Positions 56 to 48,772 of a DNA stretch of 64,000 bases are shown in pieces (the first letter of the stretch is position 1; each line of letters starts with the position of its first letter). The notes under the pieces were generated by a model. It was given only the letters and a program-made list of their open reading frames with translations. It was not told where the DNA came from and ran no database searches. Source of the stretch: an uncultured Kiritimatiellota bacterium (GTDB lineage Bacteria; Verrucomicrobiota; Kiritimatiellia; RFP12; DVOR01); assembly GCA_944389945.1 (NCBI GenBank), contig CALXOF010000002.1:1-64000 (forward strand), read 5' to 3'. Made by a program: the position numbers and the translations under genes.

Positions 56-95
56 AAAATATAGTTGACTTAAGGGTTCGCAAAAGACCCTTTGG
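56..95. repeat. Palindromic-array locus A (degenerate)
   Basis: Short, decayed member of the array family seen at five other places in the window. An ATATAGT-like half core (about 58-65) is followed by ACTTAAGGGT (68-77) and a closing ACCCTTTGG (87-95). The element lies between the 3' end of ppaC and the window edge. The rest of 1-136 shows nothing else convincing. Confidence 0.55.
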
Positions 96-7023: not shown

Positions 7024-7287
7024 ATGGCCATCGAAAACGAAGTCTACGCCGACGGCGTCTACCAAATCCACATGCTGGAGCAGACCATCCGCCTGGACTT
7101 CATGCGCCTGCAGCCCAGCCCCGAGAACCAGACCCCTGTGCCTAAACCCTTCGAGCGCGTCATCCTCTCGCCCCAAGGGTTCCTCCGCACCTACGAGGCC
7201 ATGGGGCAAATCGTCCACAAGCTTGAGGAGCTCGGCCTCATCCGCCGCAACCCCAATCCTCCCACCAATCCCCCTGCCGCCCAGTAA
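7024..7287 (+). CDS. Small conserved-looking protein, possibly DUF3467-like
   Basis: 87 aa, preceded by a good GAAAGGA ribosome site at suitable spacing. The stretches YQIHMLEQTIRLDFMRLQP and FERVILSPQGFLRTYEAMGQ resemble the DUF3467 pattern, in which an 'LDFgr..p' strand is followed by a 'riv.sp.hak.ll' helix. The match is by eye and weak. The C-terminus is a Pro/Asn-rich tail. It probably shares a transcript with serC. Function unknown. Confidence 0.6.
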   Translation: MAIENEVYADGVYQIHMLEQTIRLDFMRLQPSPENQTPVPKPFERVILSPQGFLRTYEAMGQIVHKLEELGLIRRNPNPPTNPPAAQ

Positions 7288-7299
7288 GGCCCTTTCCAG

Positions 7300-7428
7300 A
7301 CCCTATAAGGGTTCGACCCGAGACCCTATAAGGGTTGACCTCCGACCCTTATAGAGGTCGACCGTGAACCCTTAAGGGTTTCTCCAAGCCCCTTCGAGGG
7401 GTCTCCTCTTGCGACCCTGTTCTCAAGA
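7300..7428. repeat. Palindromic-array locus B (five clear cores)
   Basis: Cores: ACCCTATAAGGGT at 7300-7312 and 7323-7335, ACCCTTATAGAGGT at 7345-7358, ACCCTTAAGGGT at 7368-7379, CCCCTTCGAGGGG at 7389-7401, and a decayed ACCCTGTTCTCAAG from 7413. Core starts are 21-24 bp apart, about two helical turns. It fills most of the 172-bp gap before the flippase gene. The linkers between cores (tcgaccc, tgacctc, cgaccgtg) are also related to each other. Confidence 0.85.
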
Positions 7429-7459: not shown

Positions 7460-9010
7460 ATGACGGAAAACCGCCGCATCTTCCTTAACATCATCGCCAC
7501 CTATGGGCGCTCGCTTTTTGCGCTCGCTTGCGGCCTTTTCACCGGCCGCTGGCTCCTCATGTCCCTCGGCGAGGTAGACTATGGACTTTTTGGTGTAGTC
7601 GGGGGTCTTTCTGGCTTTATCGGGTTTATCAGTAGTTTGATTGCTGCTGCAGTAGGCCGATTCTATACTTTCGCCATTGGGCAAGCCCGCGTCTCGGGAG
7701 CTGAAGGCTTGGAAGAATGCCGCAAATGGTTCAATACAGCGGTGTTGCTTCACACCGTCATTCCGGTCGCACTAATGGTTTGCGGTTATCCCATCGGGGA
7801 ATACGCCATTCGTAATGGATGGATTTTCATCCCTGCGGACCGAATGGAAGCTTGCCTTTGGGTCTTTCGATTCTCTTGCCTTTCTTGCTTTTTGGGGTTG
7901 GTGACGGTACCCTTCAACGCCATGTACGGCGCCAAACAATACATCGCCGAGCTCACAGTTTACTCCTTCATCACCACCACGCTCAACGTCTGCTTCCTCT
8001 ATTATATGGTGACGCACCCGGGTGATTGGCTCGCTCGCTACGCATTTTGGGGTGCCCTTCTCGGTATCGCGCCTAACCTCATCATTGCCTATCGTGCCTA
8101 CCAACTCTTCCCAGAGTGTCGCTTCCGCCGCGCCTACCTCTGGGACTGGGGCCGTACAAAAGCGCTTTTTAGTTACGCCGGTGCCCAATTTTTCGGTTGT
8201 TTCAGTGCAATGTTGCGTCAACAAGGCATCGCAATCCTCGTAAACCGCTACTTTAAGGCGACCCGTAATGCCGATATCAATGTCGCCAATTCCGTTGCCG
8301 GACACTGCTTCACTCTCGCCGGATGCATGACAGGCGCCTTCGCCCCTGCCCTCACCACTGCCCGTGGGGCCGGCGATTGGACTCGTATGCACGGATTGGC
8401 GTTCAGGACCTGCAAAATAGGTGTCCTACTCGTCTTCCTTTTCGCTCTCCCCATGATGTTGGAGGTGGATTTGGTGTTGAAGCTCTGGCTGAAAGACCCT
8501 CCACAATATGCGGCCATGCTTTGTCTCTTCTTTCTTATTGGCACAATCTGTGAACGCGTAGCGTGGGGCCACTCTCTCGCACTTAATGCCAATGGGAAAA
8601 TCTGGGGCTATCAACTTGCGGTCGGTATCGTTAACTTTGCCATCTTTCCCATAACGTGGCTATTACTTGCGCTCACACGAGACATTGCCACAATCGGTGT
8701 CACATTTGTTCTTGTGATGATAGGAAATGCTGTGGTACTCGTCATCTTTGCAAGAGTCTTGGTCGCCATGGGAATCCGTCGCTGGGTTTTCACGGTGGTG
8801 TTACCCCTTTGCCTGCTTGCGGCCGTCTGCCTTGCAGTCGGGGCTTTACCTCGTTTCTTACTTGCACCAACTTTCTGGCGTCTTTGCATCACCACCGCCA
8901 CCATTGAAATCGTTTTGGTCCCCACGGCCTGGTTTCTCGTCCTCTCCAAAGACGAACGCGTCTACGTTCGCGAAAAGCTAATGCTACTTATAGACCGATT
9001 CCGCAAATAG
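7460..9010 (+). CDS. Polysaccharide flippase-like membrane protein (Wzx/MOP superfamily)
   Basis: 516 aa with about 12-14 hydrophobic segments and almost no soluble domain. It probably moves lipid-linked oligosaccharide across the inner membrane. The N-terminus (NIIATYGRSLFALACGLFTG) and GEVDYGLFGVVGGLSGFI resemble the first helices of Wzx/PST transporters. The ATG at 7460 is preferred to one 51 bp upstream, which falls inside the repeat-array flank and would add a non-hydrophobic leader. It is followed by a GT2 glycosyltransferase. Both genes use more A/T-ending codons than their neighbours, hinting at acquisition by transfer, as is common for surface glycan genes. Confidence 0.85.
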   Translation: MTENRRIFLNIIATYGRSLFALACGLFTGRWLLMSLGEVDYGLFGVVGGLSGFIGFISSLIAAAVGRFYTFAIGQARVSGAEGLEECRKWFNTAVLLHTVIPVALMVCGYPIGEYAIRNGWIFIPADRMEACLWVFRFSCLSCFLGLVTVPFNAMYGAKQYIAELTVYSFITTTLNVCFLYYMVTHPGDWLARYAFWGALLGIAPNLIIAYRAYQLFPECRFRRAYLWDWGRTKALFSYAGAQFFGCFSAMLRQQGIAILVNRYFKATRNADINVANSVAGHCFTLAGCMTGAFAPALTTARGAGDWTRMHGLAFRTCKIGVLLVFLFALPMMLEVDLVLKLWLKDPPQYAAMLCLFFLIGTICERVAWGHSLALNANGKIWGYQLAVGIVNFAIFPITWLLLALTRDIATIGVTFVLVMIGNAVVLVIFARVLVAMGIRRWVFTVVLPLCLLAAVCLAVGALPRFLLAPTFWRLCITTATIEIVLVPTAWFLVLSKDERVYVREKLMLLIDRFRK

Positions 9011-13444: not shown

Positions 13445-13939
13445 TTACGAGAAACACGCCACCCAGATATTCATGACCACGATGGCAACAACACTGCCCG
13501 TGGCCATGCCGCCATAGACCTCCACGCGCGTGTGCCCCAACATTTCCTTCAAGGGGCGGGCCGGGAATTTGCGCTCATGGAAAAGCTGACTCGTAATCTC
13601 GTTTAAGAGACGGGCCTGCAATCCCGCGGCGCGGCGCACGGTCGCGGCATCAAACATCGTAATGGCGGCAACCACGCTGGCCACAATCGTTGCGGGCGCG
13701 GCCCATCCCTCACCCAAGCCCAGGCTGACAAAGACGCCCATGACCAATGCCGAATGGGCGCTAGGCATCCCACCCGTGCTGGTGAGATAGGTAAAGTCCA
13801 GGCTTTTAGTTCGGATAGCCCCGCGCGTCATCTTGATGAGTTGCGCGGTGCACCATCCCATGAACCCGCTCCAAAAGTAGGGGTTACAGAAATACGTCCA
13901 GAAGTCCACTGCCAATCTGGCGCCCTCTGTCTCTCCCAT
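13445..13939 (-). CDS. Divergent PAP2 (DUF212) family membrane protein
   Basis: 164 aa. The DUF212 hallmark STGGMPSAHSALVMG follows an N-terminal YFWSGFMGWCTAQLIK segment, and the C-terminal region has LKEMLGHTRVEVYGG. PAP2-like acid-phosphatase motifs (PSAHS, GHTRVEV) suggest phosphatase activity on a lipid phosphate, but bacterial members are uncharacterised. The start shares one base with the lepA stop (TGATG), so it is coupled to lepA. It converges on the CxxCxGxG gene with a 7-bp gap and no obvious terminator. Confidence 0.88.
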   Translation of the reverse strand: MGETEGARLAVDFWTYFCNPYFWSGFMGWCTAQLIKMTRGAIRTKSLDFTYLTSTGGMPSAHSALVMGVFVSLGLGEGWAAPATIVASVVAAITMFDAATVRRAAGLQARLLNEITSQLFHERKFPARPLKEMLGHTRVEVYGGMATGSVVAIVVMNIWVACFS

Positions 13940-15768
13940 CACTTTTCCTCCGAAGAACCCTTGAGCACGGCGATGAAGGCCGACTGCGGCACATTGACGG
14001 TGCCAAACTCCTTCATGCGCTTCTTGCCCTCGGCCTGTTTCTTGAGCAACTTCTGCTTGCGCGTGACGTCGCCGCCATAGAGCTTGGCCGTAACGTCCTT
14101 GCGGAAGGGGCGGATATCCTCGCGCGCGATGATGGTGCGCCCGATACACGCCTGCACCGGGATCTTGAACATATGCGGCGGAATGGTCTCGCTCAGCGCC
14201 TTGCACATCTGCTTGCCGCGAGCCACCGCCCGATCCCGGTGCACCATGCACGAGAAGGCATCGACCGGTTCGCCGTTCAGTAAGATGTCCAGACGCACGA
14301 TGTCGCTGGCCTGATAGCCGTGCGGTTCATAGTCCATCGAGGCATAACCGCGCGAGATGGACTTCAGCGTGTCATGAAAATCGATAAGGATTTCGTTCAG
14401 CGGCAGGATGCAGGTGAGGATGACGCGCTGCGCGTCCAACGACTCCGTGCTATCCACAATACCGCGACGCTCCATCACCAAGCGCATGATGTCGCCAATG
14501 CACGCGCTCATCGTGATAATGCGAGCCTTAATCATTGGCTCCTCAATCGTCTCGATGCGTGTCGGATCCGGCAACAACACAGGGTTGTCAATCTCCTGCA
14601 CCGTTCCATCCTTCAGCGTCACGCGATAGACGACGGCCGGGTGCGTGTTGATGATGTCCAACTGGAACTCACGCCGCAGACGTTCCTGCACCACCTCCAT
14701 GTGGAGCAGGCCCAGGAAACCGCAACGGAAACCGAAGCCTAGCGCCGCCGAGCTCTCCGCGTGGAAGGTGAAGGCACTGTCATTCAGATGCAACTTCTCC
14801 AAGCCCGCGCGCACCTTGTTGTATTCGTCCGTGCTCACGGGATAGATACCGCAGAAAACCGTCGGGTGGATTTCCTTGAAGCCATGGAGCGGCGTCTGCG
14901 CGCCATCGCGCTGGCTGGTCAGCGTGTCGCCCACCTTGATGTCCGCCGGGTCCTTGATGGCGCCGACGATATAACCCACCTGCCCGGGTTCCAACACCTC
15001 CACCGGCTTCTGCGAGGGCGAGAAGATGCCGACCTCCTTCACCGGCGTTGTCATCCCCGTCGACATAAAGCGGAGCACGTCCCCCGCCCGAATCGCGCCA
15101 TCCACCACGCGCACATAGGTAATCACCCCGCGGTAGACGTCAAAGACCGAATCGAAGACCAATGCACGGAGCGGCCCTTCCAGATGCTCCGACTTCGGCG
15201 GCGGCACGCGGCGCACAATCTCTTCCAATACCTCCGGCACGCCCACCCCGGTCTTCGCCGAGATCAACAGCTGCGGGTCCACCGGGATGCCCAAGACATC
15301 CTCGATTTGGTGAATCACCCCCGGCACATCCGCGCTCGGCAAGTCCACCTTGTTCAACACCGGGATGATTTCCAGGTTCGCGTCGATGGCCAGATAGGCA
15401 TTCGCCACCGTCTGCGCCTCCACACCCTGCGCCGCATCCACCACCAGGATGGCCCCCTCGCACGCACCCATCGCGCGGCTCACCTCATAGGCAAAGTCCA
15501 CGTGTCCGGGCGTGTCAATCAGGTTGAAGCGATACCGCTTGCCGTCCTTGGCCGTGTATGCCATCGTCACGGGGTGGCTCTTGATGGTGATGCCACGCTC
15601 ACGCTCCAAGTCCATCGCGTCCAGCGTCTGCTCTTTCAGCTGGCGCGGGTCGATGGCCTTGGTCAGCTCCAAAATCCGATCCGACAACGTCGTCTTACCG
15701 TGGTCGATGTGCGCGATGATGCAAAAGTTGCGCGTGAATTCCAAATCTTTCCCGTAATCGATATCCAT
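13939..15768 (-). CDS. lepA: Elongation factor 4 (LepA), ribosome back-translocase GTPase
   Basis: 609 aa, full length for the family. The G domain carries AHIDHGKTT (P-loop), RERGITIKS (switch I), DTPGH (G3) and NKVD (G4). The LepA-specific C-terminal domain ends with LYGGDVTRKQKLLKKQAEGKKRMK, characteristic of EF4. It acts on stalled or mis-translocated ribosomes. A TTG 18 bp upstream is in frame but lies inside the -10 element, so ATG at 15768 is taken as the start. The mRNA should be almost leaderless. It is co-transcribed with the DUF212 gene and divergent from clpB. Confidence 0.97.
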   Translation of the reverse strand: MDIDYGKDLEFTRNFCIIAHIDHGKTTLSDRILELTKAIDPRQLKEQTLDAMDLERERGITIKSHPVTMAYTAKDGKRYRFNLIDTPGHVDFAYEVSRAMGACEGAILVVDAAQGVEAQTVANAYLAIDANLEIIPVLNKVDLPSADVPGVIHQIEDVLGIPVDPQLLISAKTGVGVPEVLEEIVRRVPPPKSEHLEGPLRALVFDSVFDVYRGVITYVRVVDGAIRAGDVLRFMSTGMTTPVKEVGIFSPSQKPVEVLEPGQVGYIVGAIKDPADIKVGDTLTSQRDGAQTPLHGFKEIHPTVFCGIYPVSTDEYNKVRAGLEKLHLNDSAFTFHAESSAALGFGFRCGFLGLLHMEVVQERLRREFQLDIINTHPAVVYRVTLKDGTVQEIDNPVLLPDPTRIETIEEPMIKARIITMSACIGDIMRLVMERRGIVDSTESLDAQRVILTCILPLNEILIDFHDTLKSISRGYASMDYEPHGYQASDIVRLDILLNGEPVDAFSCMVHRDRAVARGKQMCKALSETIPPHMFKIPVQACIGRTIIAREDIRPFRKDVTAKLYGGDVTRKQKLLKKQAEGKKRMKEFGTVNVPQSAFIAVLKGSSEEK

Positions 15769-15785: not shown

Positions 15786-15858
15786 AATAACCCCCACGCC
15801 TGTGCAGAACTCACCGCATCCTTCCGCGCCCGCCTCCAGAAGGTGCAGATTTCCACCT

Positions 15859-15976
15859 CCAAAGGTCTCTCCGCGGACCCTTAAGGGTTTCGGGTCGAAC
15901 CACTATAGGGTCTCGCCCCCGACCACTATAGTGGTTGACCTCGGACCACTATAGGGTCTCAGAAAGACCCTTCTGG
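15859..15976. repeat. Palindromic-array locus C (four cores with inverted flanks)
   Basis: Cores: ACCCTTAAGGGT at 15877-15888, ACCACTATAGGGT at 15899-15911, the perfect palindrome ACCACTATAGTGGT at 15922-15935, and ACCACTATAGGGT at 15945-15957. Core starts are 22-23 bp apart. The left flank CCAAAGGTC (15859-15867) is roughly the inverse complement of the right closing element GACCCTTCTGG (15966-15976). The array lies between divergent lepA and clpB, upstream of the sigma-54 control region. Confidence 0.88.
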
Positions 15977-16019
15977 CTTGACCGTCACCCCCTTCTGAGA
16001 TTGACTGTGACAGGTGGCG

Positions 16020-16180: not shown

Positions 16181-18709
16181 ATGGATATGAATCAAATGAC
16201 GGAACGGTTGCGCGAGGCGTTGACCCTGGCGCAACAGGAAGGTATCCGCCGGCAGCAGCAAACGGTGGAGCCTGAACATGTGTTGTGGGCCCTACTGACG
16301 CAGGAGCGTGGGTTGGCAGGGAGCCTGCTGACGAAGTGCGGCATCTCGTTGGAATTGGCCCGGGCCCGTGTGGCCGAGGCAATGGACCGTTTGCCGCGGG
16401 TGACGGGCTCGATGGAGGCCAACAAGGTCTACGTCTCGTCCAACCTACAGGAAATTCTGGTGGATGCCTTTGACCGCGCGAAGAAGATGGGCGATGCGTA
16501 CGTCTCCATCGAGCACGTGCTTCTGGCGATGGCCAAGCGCATGCAACTGTTGCGTGACCTAGGCCTGAGCGAGAACGCGCTTCTCTCGGCGTTGAAGGAG
16601 GTGCGCGGCAACCAGCGCATCACCAGCGACAACCCCGAAGAGAGCTATGAAGCGCTGAAGAAGTATGGCACAGACCTGGTGGAACTGGCCCGCGCGGGGA
16701 AACTTGACCCCGTAATCGGCCGCGACACGGAAATCCGCGACGTGATCCGCATCCTTTCCCGCAAGACGAAGAACAACCCCGTCCTCATCGGCGAACCCGG
16801 CGTTGGCAAGACGGCCATCGTCGAAGGCTTGGCCCAGCGTATCGTGCGCGGTGATGTGCCGGAAGGTCTGAAGAACCGCACCATCTTTGCCCTCGACATG
16901 ACAGCGTTGATGGCCGGCGCGAAATACCGCGGCGACTTCGAGGAGCGTCTGAAAGCCGTCCTGAAGGAAATCAAGGCCAGCGAAGGGCGTATCATCCTCT
17001 TCATCGATGAGATTCACACCATCGTTGGCGCGGGTAAGACCGAAGGCTCCAGCGATGCCGGCAATATGCTCAAACCCATGTTGGCGCGCGGTGAACTGCA
17101 CTGCATCGGCGCGACGACCCTGGCCGAGCACCGTCTCTATATGGAGAAGGATAAGGCCCTGGAGCGCCGCTTCCAGCCCGTGATGGTCGCCCCGCCCACC
17201 GTGGAGGACACCATCAGTATCCTGCGCGGCCTGAAGGAACGCTTCGAAGCCCACCACAACGTCCGCATCCAGGACTCCGCCCTCGTCAACGCCGCCGTGC
17301 TGAGCGACCGCTACATCCAGGACCGCTTCCTGCCCGACAAGGCCATCGACCTGCTCGATGAGGCCTGCGCAGCCATCCGCACTGAGATGGACTCCATGCC
17401 CGCCGAGCTCGACGAGCTGAGCCGTAAGGTCATGCGTTTGGAGATTGAGGAAGCCGCCCTAGCCAAGGAGAAAGACGACGCCTCCAAGAAACGTTTGGAG
17501 GAACTCCGTCAAGAGCTCGCCGACGAGAAGTCCAAGGCCGATGCCCTCAAGGCCAAGTGGCAGGAGGAGAAGAAAGCCCACGAGGCCAGCAAAGGTCTGC
17601 GTGAGCAACTCGACGCCGCCCGCCACGAACTCGAGTTGGCCCAACGGAAGTTCGACTACGCCAAGGCCGGTGAATTGCAGTACAAGACGATTCCCGAACT
17701 GGAGAAGAAACTTGCGGCCGCAGCCAAGGACACCAAGGAATCGATGCTCAGCGAGGTTGTTGGCCCCGAGGAGATTGCCGAGGCTGTCAGCCGTTGGTCT
17801 GGTGTTCCCGTGAGCAAACTGCTCGAAGGCGAACGCGAGAAACTGTTGCGTTTGGACGATGCCATCAAGGCCAAGGTCATCGGACAGGATGAGGCCGTTG
17901 AGGCTGTCTCCGACGCCGTGCTCCGTGCCCGCGCCGGTATCCGCAACCGCAACAAACCCATCGGCGCCTTCCTCTTCCTAGGCCCCACGGGCGTGGGCAA
18001 GACCGAACTCGCCCGCGTCCTGGCCGAGCAGCTCTTTGACAGCCGCGACGCGATGACGCGCATCGATATGTCCGAGTACATGGAGCGCCACAGCGTCAGC
18101 CGCTTGGTCGGCGCGCCTCCTGGATACGTCGGTTACGAAGAAGGCGGCCAACTCACCGAGGCCGTCCGCCGCAAACCCTACAGCGTCGTGTTGCTGGACG
18201 AGATCGAGAAGGCCCACCCCGATGTCTTCAAGCTCTTCCTGCAGGTCTTCGACGACGGCCGCCTGACCGACAACAAGGGTACCACCGTCAGCTTCAAGAA
18301 CACCATCATCATCATGACCTCCAACCTCGGCTCTGACCTCATCGCCAATGCCGAGAAGGAAGGCGACAAGGCTCGGCTTGAAGAGCTGGTGTCCAACCTG
18401 CTGAAGGGCAAGTTCCCTCCCGAGTTCCTCAACCGCATTGACGAGACCCTCATCTTCCGTCCGCTCTCCAAGGAAAGCCTCACGAAGATTGTCGACCTAC
18501 AGCTTAAGGATCTCGCCAATCGCTTGGCCGAGCAGGAACTCACCCTCAAGGTCTCCGCCAAGACCAAGGCCGCCATCATCGAGGAAGGCTACGACCCCGA
18601 CTTCGGTGCCCGCCCACTCAAGCGCGCCATCCAGCGTATCCTGGAGACGCCCATCGCCCACGATATCATCGCCGGCAAGTACCCGCCCGGCTCCACCGTT
18701 GCGGTTTAA
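16181..18709 (+). CDS. clpB: ATP-dependent disaggregase ClpB (Hsp100)
   Basis: 842 aa. It works with DnaK/DnaJ to pull apart aggregated protein. It has a Clp N domain (about 1-145), AAA-1 with GEPGVGKT (about 204-211) and ILFIDEIHT, the M-domain coiled coil (about 395-530), and AAA-2 with GPTGVGKTE (about 601-609), ending in the D2-small domain. The start at 16181 is set by AAGGAGG at 16165-16171, 9 nt before the ATG; in-frame codons further upstream run through the promoter. Expression appears to depend on sigma-54, which is unusual for clpB. A hairpin terminator follows 31 bp after the stop. Confidence 0.97.
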
Positions 18710-31428: not shown

Positions 31429-31514
31429 TATTGCCTCCTTCTTGTCTTCCCCAAACACCAAAATCTCCCACGATGTGCCCGATTGTACACAGAAACCCTC
31501 CCCCTCGAAAAGCC

Positions 31515-31590
31515 CCCTTCAAGGGCTCTTCACGGACCCCTTAAGGGTCGAGGGTGAGACCCTATAGTGGTCCGGAGAAGGCCCTTCTGG
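31515..31590. repeat. Palindromic-array locus D
   Basis: CCCTTCAAGGG at 31515-31525, ACCCCTTAAGGGT at 31536-31548, ACCCTATAGTGGT at 31559-31571, then the closing GCCCTTCTGG at 31581-31590. Core starts are 21-23 bp apart. It sits in the 389-bp gap between the divergent acyltransferase and purL. The rest of that gap (31591-31733) shows nothing recognised. Confidence 0.85.
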
Positions 31591-36550: not shown

Positions 36551-37911
36551 CCGCCCAGCCCGTAGACAAGTTCACCTTTACCCCCTGGAACGCCACCCGT
36601 TTCTTTGTCCCGCTCTTCCTCCAGGCCGCCAGCCAATCCCTCACCTACCCCCTCGTCGGCGTCGTCGTGGCCCACGGTCTCCACGGTGCACGCGAGTTCT
36701 CTGCCTTCTCCCAGGGCTTCATGCTCATGTTCTTAATCGGGACGCTCGGGTTCGGCCTCGTCACCACCGGCATGGTCTACGCCAAGGACCGCCTCGGCTA
36801 CCTCCGCTTCCGCCGCGTCAACGCCCTGGTGATGGTCATCATCTCGCTCCTGCAATGCGCCCTCGCCCTCCCCGTCATCGCACCCTTCGTCTTTGGCAAA
36901 CTCCTCGGCCTGGAGGGCGTCCAGCTCGAGATTGCCCGCTGGTCCATGCTCTTTGGACTTCCCGCCCAGCTCGCCTTCCTGTTGCGTAACGTCCCGCAGG
37001 TTCTCCTCTACAACGACCACGCCACCGGCCTGGCCAACATGGCCACCATCCTGCGCATCATCCTCACCGCCATCCTCGCCCCCATCTTCCACCTCCTCGG
37101 CCTCGTCGGATGGGTCTGGGGTTGCGTCTGCCTCACCATCCCCGTCTTCCTCGAATCCTTCCTCATGGATTGGTTCGCCCGCCCCTACCTCAAGCGCCTC
37201 CCCATGATTCTGCGCGACGGCGAGAAGGCCTCCGTCACCCGCATCTTCCTCTTCAATATCCCCCTCTCCCTCGGCGGCACCCTCCTCTCCCTCTCCGTCT
37301 TCATGCTCAACGCCATCATCAACCGCACCGAAAACGGCGCCTCCATGCTCGCCGTCCACCTCGTTGCCATCGGCCTCATCAACCCTGTCTCCTTCGGTGC
37401 CCTCCGCAACCAAGCCGTCGCCATTGGCTTCCCCCAGCGTGACCTACACGACCAACGTACCTTCCTCTTCGCCATCGCCACCGGCATCGTCCTCGCCGTA
37501 CTCCTCCTTCCTCTCACCATCCCTGCCGTCGGTGACTGGTACTTCTGCTCCATCCAAAACCTCTCGCCCCACGAAGGTGACCTCGCCCGTCAAGTTATTT
37601 GGTGGGCCATTCCCTTCCTCCTCTTCCAAGCCGTCCGCGGCCACGCCGAAGGCCTCGCCGCCTACCGCCACCGCCCCAACGCCGTCCTCGCCGGCCAGGC
37701 CGTCTTCTTCGGCGTCCTCGTTTCCGTCCTCGTCACCCTCTTCCACTTCGACGTCTCCGGCCACGTTATGGGTATTATTTCCCTCCTCTGTGCCTCCGTC
37801 GCCACCTTCCTCACCATCCGCCTCGGCCTCGCCCTCGCCTGGATCGAAGACGACCCCGACTTCCCCAAAGGCCCCAACTCCTCCCACCCCTCCACCTGGC
37901 CTCACCGTTAA
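36547..37911 (+). CDS. MATE/MOP-superfamily membrane transporter
   Basis: 454 aa with about twelve hydrophobic segments and little else. Features such as QAASQSLTYPLVGVVVAHG in helix 1 and a two-fold helix pattern suggest a MATE or flippase-like exporter. It differs in sequence from the Wzx-like protein at 7460. It may export a small molecule or a lipid-linked product; substrate is unreadable. The 4-bp overlap with the transglutaminase-like gene points to a joint role. It is the last gene of the purL operon, followed by array E. Confidence 0.75.
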   Translation: MTAQPVDKFTFTPWNATRFFVPLFLQAASQSLTYPLVGVVVAHGLHGAREFSAFSQGFMLMFLIGTLGFGLVTTGMVYAKDRLGYLRFRRVNALVMVIISLLQCALALPVIAPFVFGKLLGLEGVQLEIARWSMLFGLPAQLAFLLRNVPQVLLYNDHATGLANMATILRIILTAILAPIFHLLGLVGWVWGCVCLTIPVFLESFLMDWFARPYLKRLPMILRDGEKASVTRIFLFNIPLSLGGTLLSLSVFMLNAIINRTENGASMLAVHLVAIGLINPVSFGALRNQAVAIGFPQRDLHDQRTFLFAIATGIVLAVLLLPLTIPAVGDWYFCSIQNLSPHEGDLARQVIWWAIPFLLFQAVRGHAEGLAAYRHRPNAVLAGQAVFFGVLVSVLVTLFHFDVSGHVMGIISLLCASVATFLTIRLGLALAWIEDDPDFPKGPNSSHPSTWPHR

Positions 37912-37966
37912 AGGTCCCTTCCCAACCTTTGGTCAGCACTTAAGGGTTTCACCCCGACCCCTTATT
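37911..37966. repeat. Palindromic-array locus E (short)
   Basis: AAAGGTCCC (37911-37919), AACCTTTGGT (37924-37933), a half core ACTTAAGGGT (37938-37947) and a trailing ACCCCTTATTC. It has the same parts as the longer arrays but only one recognisable core. The remaining 37967-38098 shows nothing recognised. Confidence 0.55.
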
Positions 37967-48490: not shown

Positions 48491-48645
48491 CTGTGCGTCA
48501 CCGTGCCTCAAATCTATAGCGTTTGGGGAACTTTAGAGGCCTTCTCTTTTCCACAAAACGCTAGTGTGCACGAAATGGTGAGTGACGACCCATGGTCTAC
48601 GGCGAAATCGCGATGGGTGATTGGCTGTCTCCTAAAGGGGGCTTT
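48491..48645 (+). ncRNA. Candidate structured RNA
   Basis: Nested pairing forms a rod: GTCAC (48497-48501) with GTGAC (48582-48586); CGTGC (48502-48506) with GCACG (48568-48572); TAGCGTTT (48517-48524) with AAACGCTA (48556-48563); GGGGAA with TTTTCC, and AGAG with CTCT around the tip. A second hairpin joins ACCCAT (48588-48593) to ATGGGT (48613-48618). A TATAAT lies 7 bp before it and array F follows. The pairing would also form on the minus strand, where it would be the leader of the GT-C-like gene. It does not match tmRNA, RNase P RNA or SRP RNA by eye; a 6S-like role is only a guess. Confidence 0.4.
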
Positions 48646-48650
48646 GTGAG

Positions 48651-48772
48651 ACCCTATAAGGGTCGGAGGGGGACCAATATAAGGGTCGAGGGGGAGACCC
48701 TATAAGGGGCCGGGGGCGACCACTATAGGGGTCCAAGGGGAGACCCTATAGGGGTCGAGAAAAGACCTTTGG
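48651..48772. repeat. Palindromic-array locus F (five cores)
   Basis: ACCCTATAAGGGT at 48651-48663, ACCAATATAAGGGT at 48673-48686, ACCCTATAAGGGG at 48697-48709, ACCACTATAGGGGT at 48719-48732, ACCCTATAGGGGT at 48743-48755, then the closing GACCTTTGG at 48764-48772. Core starts are 22-24 bp apart. The left flank CCTAAAGG (48631-48638) is close to the inverse of the closing element. It lies in the 482-bp gap between the GT-C-like gene and pcnB. Confidence 0.88.

Follow-up and report, generated by a model that had tools for sequence, protein, structure and literature searches.

Most well-studied bacterial families of palindromic repeats are tied to a RAYT or to an insertion sequence, and ERIC, an intergenic repeat, is grouped with RU-1-type and other MITE-like elements. 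Extragenic palindromic repeats of the REP/BIME type are associated with RAYT transposases (PMC2817692, PMC3733652), which are of the Y1/HUH kind and whose genes lie between inverted REPs, and the REP superfamilies carry a GTAG or CGTC tag at the end of the unit (PMC3733652). The BOX element of Streptococcus is a composite repeat with a boxA-boxB(n)-boxC structure (PMC3049150), and RU-1 is a 127-bp intergenic repeat (PMC2759123).

The arrays described here come from an uncultured, gut-type member of the Kiritimatiellota (genome G000; 2.33 Mb in 34 contigs, 92% complete). The window, i.e., the whole stretch of DNA under study, consists of the first 64,000 nt of contig C2 of this genome. With REP/BIME, these arrays share an abundance of more than 100 extragenic palindromic units per genome, a regularly spaced composite arrangement, species-specific sequences, and fast turnover. 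Unlike REPs, however, their unit consensus (GGACCACTATAGGGTCTC-GACCCC) ends without a GTAG or CGTC tag, no RAYT/Y1 was found in the genomes of the genus that were searched, and the units of G000, 15-16 bp long, are set head to tail in a fixed 23-bp phase, whereas REPs usually alternate in orientation. As in BOX, end modules are combined with variable numbers of tandem internal modules, the location is mainly intergenic, a fold is expected upon transcription, and the number of units changes, which in BOX happens between strains; by contrast, every module of G000 is a like palindrome, repeated strictly every 23 bp (every 22 bp in the related genome G008), the two families being compared by their plan alone. 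The ERIC, RU-1, and other MITE-like elements resemble the G000 element in length (~125 bp), intergenic location, imperfect long inverted symmetry, and copy numbers from dozens to hundreds but not in its internal 23-bp tandem structure with exact gain or loss of units, and a target duplication was not found. Classical MITEs are likewise short, non-coding, dispersed elements with inverted symmetry (here, ~125 bp with fold-back z scores of -7 to -9.5). Finally, intergenic minisatellites (VNTRs) have head-to-tail units and change in length by whole units, as do the arrays at three orthologous loci of G000 and its relative G005, but the G000 family is an ordered block dispersed over many sites rather than a one-locus expansion. 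The family appears to work like a BIME or BOX element, without the RAYT, the tag, and the alternating orientation of REP/BIME.

A genome-wide family of intergenic arrays

In the window, GACCCTATAAGGGTC has 12 matches with up to 3 mismatches, compared to 0.8 expected, and none of 100 shuffled sequences had as many. When the whole 2.33-Mb genome was searched with the core pattern (up to 2 mismatches), 183 places were found, as opposed to 3 for the reversed-pattern control. A survey with the family profile, which covered 1.23 Mb (53% of the genome), detected 83 arrays, approximately one per 15 kb, which extrapolates to ~156 arrays in 2.33 Mb. None of these 83 arrays lies inside a predicted gene; since the genes were called with a Markov model trained on long open reading frames, the gene boundaries are approximate. 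The intergenic palindromic-unit arrays of G000 are a real, genome-wide, and undescribed repeat family. With Rfam models at gathering thresholds, a tRNA was the sole match in the window, leaving the arrays without an assigned family, and our literature search found no description of intergenic repeats in Kiritimatiellota, although such absence does not prove that there is none.

An earlier sequence-only reading of the window had joined six intergenic loci, all said to read in the same direction, into one undescribed family. Four of them, placed at 7300, 15859, 31515, and 48651, are arrays of this family (Table 1), and their composition of tandem units of ~23 bp with palindromic cores is borne out jointly by TRF, which detected the 23-bp period at three window arrays, the pattern, and the profile. 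The other two did not hold up: the matches at 37911-37966 and 56-95 do not differ significantly from chance and would at best be remnants (a decayed one in the former case). Family status and the strictly intergenic location were both confirmed, with many more copies than six and with relatives in other genomes. The uniform direction was an error, as the element lies either way, independent of genes and of GC skew: two of the window arrays match best on each strand, 38 of the 83 arrays agree with local GC skew, and in tandem gene contexts 26 arrays are in the same sense as the genes and 19 are antisense, which gives no clear link to genes.

Table 1. Positions of the arrays in the window and of other features mentioned in the text
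Feature	Position	Strand	Family profile	Units or sequence	Surroundings
Array, five units	7280..7404	+	46.5 bits, E 8e-14	7299-7313, 7322-7336, 7344-7359, 7367-7380, 7387-7403; cores CTATA/TTATA/CTTAAG	+ strand genes 7024-7287 and 7460-9010
Canonical A-D-S-D element	15853..15978	+	138 bits, E 4.5e-42	A 15876-15889, D 15898-15912, S 15921-15936, D 15944-15958	Divergent genes (identified by Pfam): lepA-like 13939-15768 (-), clpB/clpC-like 16181-18709 (+)
Short array	31510..31575	-	27.1 bits, E 8e-8	Clear units 31535-31549, 31558-31572; degenerate outer palindromes	Divergent genes
Array, five units	48627..48766	-	48.7 bits, E 2e-14	48650-48664, 48672-48687, 48696-48710, 48718-48733, 48742-48756; TRF periods 23 and 46	Two - strand genes
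Match without a full unit	37911..37966	no strand	E 0.32	CACTTAAGGGTTTC	
Match without a full unit	56..95	no strand	E 0.1	GACTTAAGGGTTC	Near contig start
AAA-ATPase_like/PDDEXK_9 gene, example	L016:16901-18478				
AAA-ATPase_like/PDDEXK_9 gene, example	L019:6761-8329				
AAA-ATPase_like/PDDEXK_9 genes, some tandem copies	C3, 161-175 kb				

A de novo search for chains of perfect palindromes was abandoned in favor of TRF, as it returned nothing even in G000, where the commonest unit has one unpaired base. A pattern of two tandem CTTAAG cores had no matches across the genus. A local duplication that includes an array is seen in L059, where the elements at 2085-2208 and 2391-2491, ~280 bp apart, share their orientation and are followed by matching sequence.

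Unit architecture and turnover between genomes

The module is a palindrome of the form GACC-(n)-CTATAG-(n)-GGTC followed by a linker of 7-8 bp, 23 bp in total. Modules are joined head to tail in numbers of two to eight per locus (1-8 TATA centers per locus), and the TATA core and the GACC/GGTC arms are nearly invariant. Three variants differ in the spacing between GACC and GGTC: the A unit (GACCCTTAAGGGTTTC), which usually comes first, has 6 bp; the D unit (GGACCACTATAGGGTCTC), the commonest one, has an extra base in the left arm and a spacing of 7 bp; and the S unit (GACCACTATAGTGGTT) has an extra base in both arms and a spacing of 8 bp. Within an array, the D units are direct repeats. By far the commonest order is A-D-S-D, which stands by itself at 27 of the 83 loci and occurs with additions at roughly a dozen others. 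In the elements that fit the strict pattern (n = 34), the core block is always exactly 85 bp long, and the conserved stretch is ~125 bp, with conservation fading near positions -19 and +106. The element at 15853 has CTCTCCGCG and AGAAAGACC as its outer flanks. In many copies the outer parts carry CTTTCTG/CAGAAAG, and the outer ends are degenerate and hardly covary. Linker 1 is either G-rich (n = 29) or C-rich (n = 25), the two forms differing mainly as GGGTC versus GACCC, and linkers 2 and 3 are flipped in none of 56 elements each; the simplest reading of the two forms, suggested by these counts, is an inversion between neighboring palindromes.

The element folds back on itself with z scores of -9.55 and -8.60 for the RNAs of the two strands and -7.37 for DNA. 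An unbiased analysis of covariation between column pairs in 56 elements gave no strong compensatory signal for an end-to-end hairpin, so that the hairpin reflects the sequence as such, with no sign that selection maintains it.

Among the genomes of the same genus, core-pattern places number 116 in G005 and 11 in G004, the others being at background level, and no arrays were found in 380 kb of G007. A tree of one gene unites G000, G005, and G008 in a supported clade; G004, which has its own arrays with CTATAG cores, is sister to the non-carrier G001, and G015 falls outside the G000/G005/G008 clade, unplaced. G008 has a parallel, diverged version of the element (fold-back z score, -5.7) with a homologous A-type block, in which there is a leading CATAAGTCCTTATGC module and the A unit, AAACCCTTAAGGGTTT, is followed by CTTAG-core units in a 22-bp period, whereas G015 has pure 22-bp arrays of AAACCCTAAAGGGTTCGCCCCC. 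The presence of arrays across the genus is patchy and their units are species specific.

A comparison with the sister species G005 was possible at 20 loci of G000 where both flanks could be aligned: an array is present between these flanks in 8 of them, 7 times in the same orientation, and absent in 12. A clean empty site was not obtained, because in the array-less G005 sites the intergenic DNA has been replaced wholesale by other repeats. Differences of exactly one 23-bp unit were seen at positions 7280, 129147, and 181175 of contig C2; at the first of these, the G005 array is the shorter one, and the orthologous site of G008 has an array of its own unit type. The changes between the G000 and G005 arrays at position 124431 of contig C4 include swaps at variable bases. 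At two recently shared loci, with flanks ~98.7% identical, the arrays differ at 15 of 269 positions versus 6 of 458 in the flanks (p 0.002). Summed over all G000/G005 loci, array identity is 90% against 83% for the flanks, and older orthologous arrays have, for the most part, changed less than the intergenic DNA beside them; in the element at 15853, for instance, the core is 98% identical and the intergenic flanks are 87% identical. Functional selection would also give such conservation at the older loci. The mixed pattern is better explained by unit variants being exchanged within a limited set than by each site being strictly conserved.

In L219 1380-1480 of G027, from another family of the same order, there is a short array with ACCCTSAGGGT cores spaced by ~22 bp. 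A termite-gut Bacteroidales metagenome-assembled genome contains 23-bp tandem arrays of GACCCTTATACGGGTGTGGTGCC with the same ACCC...GGGT arms (L125 5940-6100 and L129 1780-2000). The L125 arrays were rejected as members of the same family, being found in only a few places in their own genome, and the GACCCTTATACGGGTGTGGTGCC arrays look independent of the Kiritimatiellota family.

Spread of the arrays

The arrays are probably copies of an interspersed repeat that is short, composite, and non-coding and resembles BIME or BOX, a repeat which has been dispersed as a block and remodeled by slippage and unit exchange and which is likely to be selfish or neutral. The A-D-S-D block keeps its order and length across many sites and has therefore spread as a block, and the core and period differ genome-wide between sister species (CTATAG and 23 bp versus CTTAG and 22 bp), a pattern of concerted evolution. 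Copying or transposition of the folded DNA would have spread the block, while slippage and template switching between palindromes would account for local changes. At orthologous sites, arrays gain or lose exact 23-bp units, and in recently shared regions the unit variants are exchanged faster than the flanking DNA changes. The arrays may be tolerated mainly because they lie between genes and at a distance from gene starts. Individual arrays may have local effects on the ends of mRNAs or on nucleoid proteins.

A more specific, and rather doubtful, reading is that of a new class of mobile composite repeats in Kiritimatiellota, RAYT-free and spread by an enzyme that recognizes the unit and coevolves with it, such that sister species have swapped the unit type of the whole genome while keeping the same multi-unit plan, even at an orthologous site (the 7300 array and its counterpart in G008). 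The transposase families covered by our searches were Y1, DDE_Tnp_1, and rve. There was no match to the Y1 transposase domain (PF01797) in G000 and 11 congeners, including the carriers G004, G005, and G008. The distribution of DDE_Tnp_1 and rve does not track the array carriers: in G005, G008, and G015, DDE_Tnp_1 is absent and each genome has only one or two rve genes, and rve is also found in the non-carriers G006 and G007. In a scan of 56 elements for target-site duplications, no length or offset stood out.

As copies of an interspersed repeat, the G000 arrays combine REP-like abundance with the lack of a RAYT or insertion sequence partner among the families searched and with a unit sequence that has turned over between sister species. 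They offer a compact case for studying how repeats are homogenized and spread in bacteria that have no obvious transposase, and they caution against taking such arrays for regulatory sites.

Genes located between inverted pairs of arrays were considered as transposases and rejected, as they turned out to be LRR_5 and hrpB-like genes. A family of 19 gene copies in half of the genome, more than 60% identical and combining the AAA-ATPase_like (PF09820) and PDDEXK_9 (PF08011) domains (examples in Table 1), was rejected as a partner of the arrays: 8 of the 19 copies are within 1.5 kb of an array, compared to ~6 expected, as estimated from array density.

Genomic placement and alternative roles

The sequence-only reading had ascribed to the units a spacing of about two helical turns, which would put every core on the same DNA face for cooperative binding of a dimeric protein. 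We consider it unlikely that the arrays are genome-wide sites at which a dimeric nucleoid or chromosome-organizing protein binds successive palindromes cooperatively. Such a protein could account for the near invariance of the core and arms, for the density of one array per ~15 kb, for the mostly better conservation of the older orthologous arrays, and for the constant 23-bp distance between TATA centers (204 intervals in G000, 84 in G005) despite the unit variants. However, "about two turns" is a loose description of this period: at 10.5 bp per turn, 23 bp corresponds to 2.19 turns, so that successive cores are rotated by ~70 degrees. With this period and half-sites spaced by 6, 7, or 8 bp, a simple same-face array of dimers is unsupported. 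The protein-binding model is further weakened by species turnover, i.e., the other core and period in G008 and G015, array numbers in congeners that range from ~150 to a handful to none, and only 8 of 20 loci being common to G005, and also by the unbiased orientation and skew.

It is quite unlikely that the arrays act at the RNA level as intergenic hairpins, whether bidirectional terminators, stabilizers of 3' ends, or attenuators. The very stable fold on either strand would suit such a role, as would the position of arrays in tandem contexts, where the median distance to 3' ends is ~104-137 bp and that to 5' ends is ~213-320 bp. Occupancy of long gaps, on the other hand, does not depend on context and includes divergent promoter regions: among gaps of at least 300 bp, arrays are found in 19 of 76 (25%) for ++, 21 of 66 (32%) for --, 13 of 34 (38%) for +-, and 15 of 51 (29%) for -+ gene pairs (p 0.55), and two of the four window arrays lie between divergent genes. 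The arrays contain no T-tract, and the array near position 124431 of contig C4 has a terminator hairpin of the usual kind, complete with T-tract, next to it. The earlier reading was right in noting the missing T-tracts, and its view that a simple terminator role is unlikely was supported.

A classical MITE, which would have arisen from a DDE insertion sequence by internal deletion and would still be mobilized in trans by the transposase of that sequence, is very unlikely: the block dispersal, length of ~125 bp, inverted symmetry of the whole element, and outer CTTTCTG/CAGAAAG match the list of MITE features in PMC3049150, but the ends are degenerate and hardly covary, no target-site duplication was found, and the carriers G005, G008, and G015 have no DDE_Tnp_1, their rve genes being shared with non-carriers.

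The long intergenic regions of G000 (C1-C26) and G005, e.g., L030 and L083-L102, are mosaics of other repeat families, such as ...CTCCGTTCTCCGGGGCGGCG..., ...GGCGCGAAACGGAGGGCGGCG..., and CTTTGTGTCCTTTGTG..., which replace each other between the two genomes. Intergenic tandem repeats with periods of 7, 8, and 9 bp account for 93, 97, and 93 TRF rows, respectively, in 1.23 Mb of G000 and for five such rows in 380 kb of G007.
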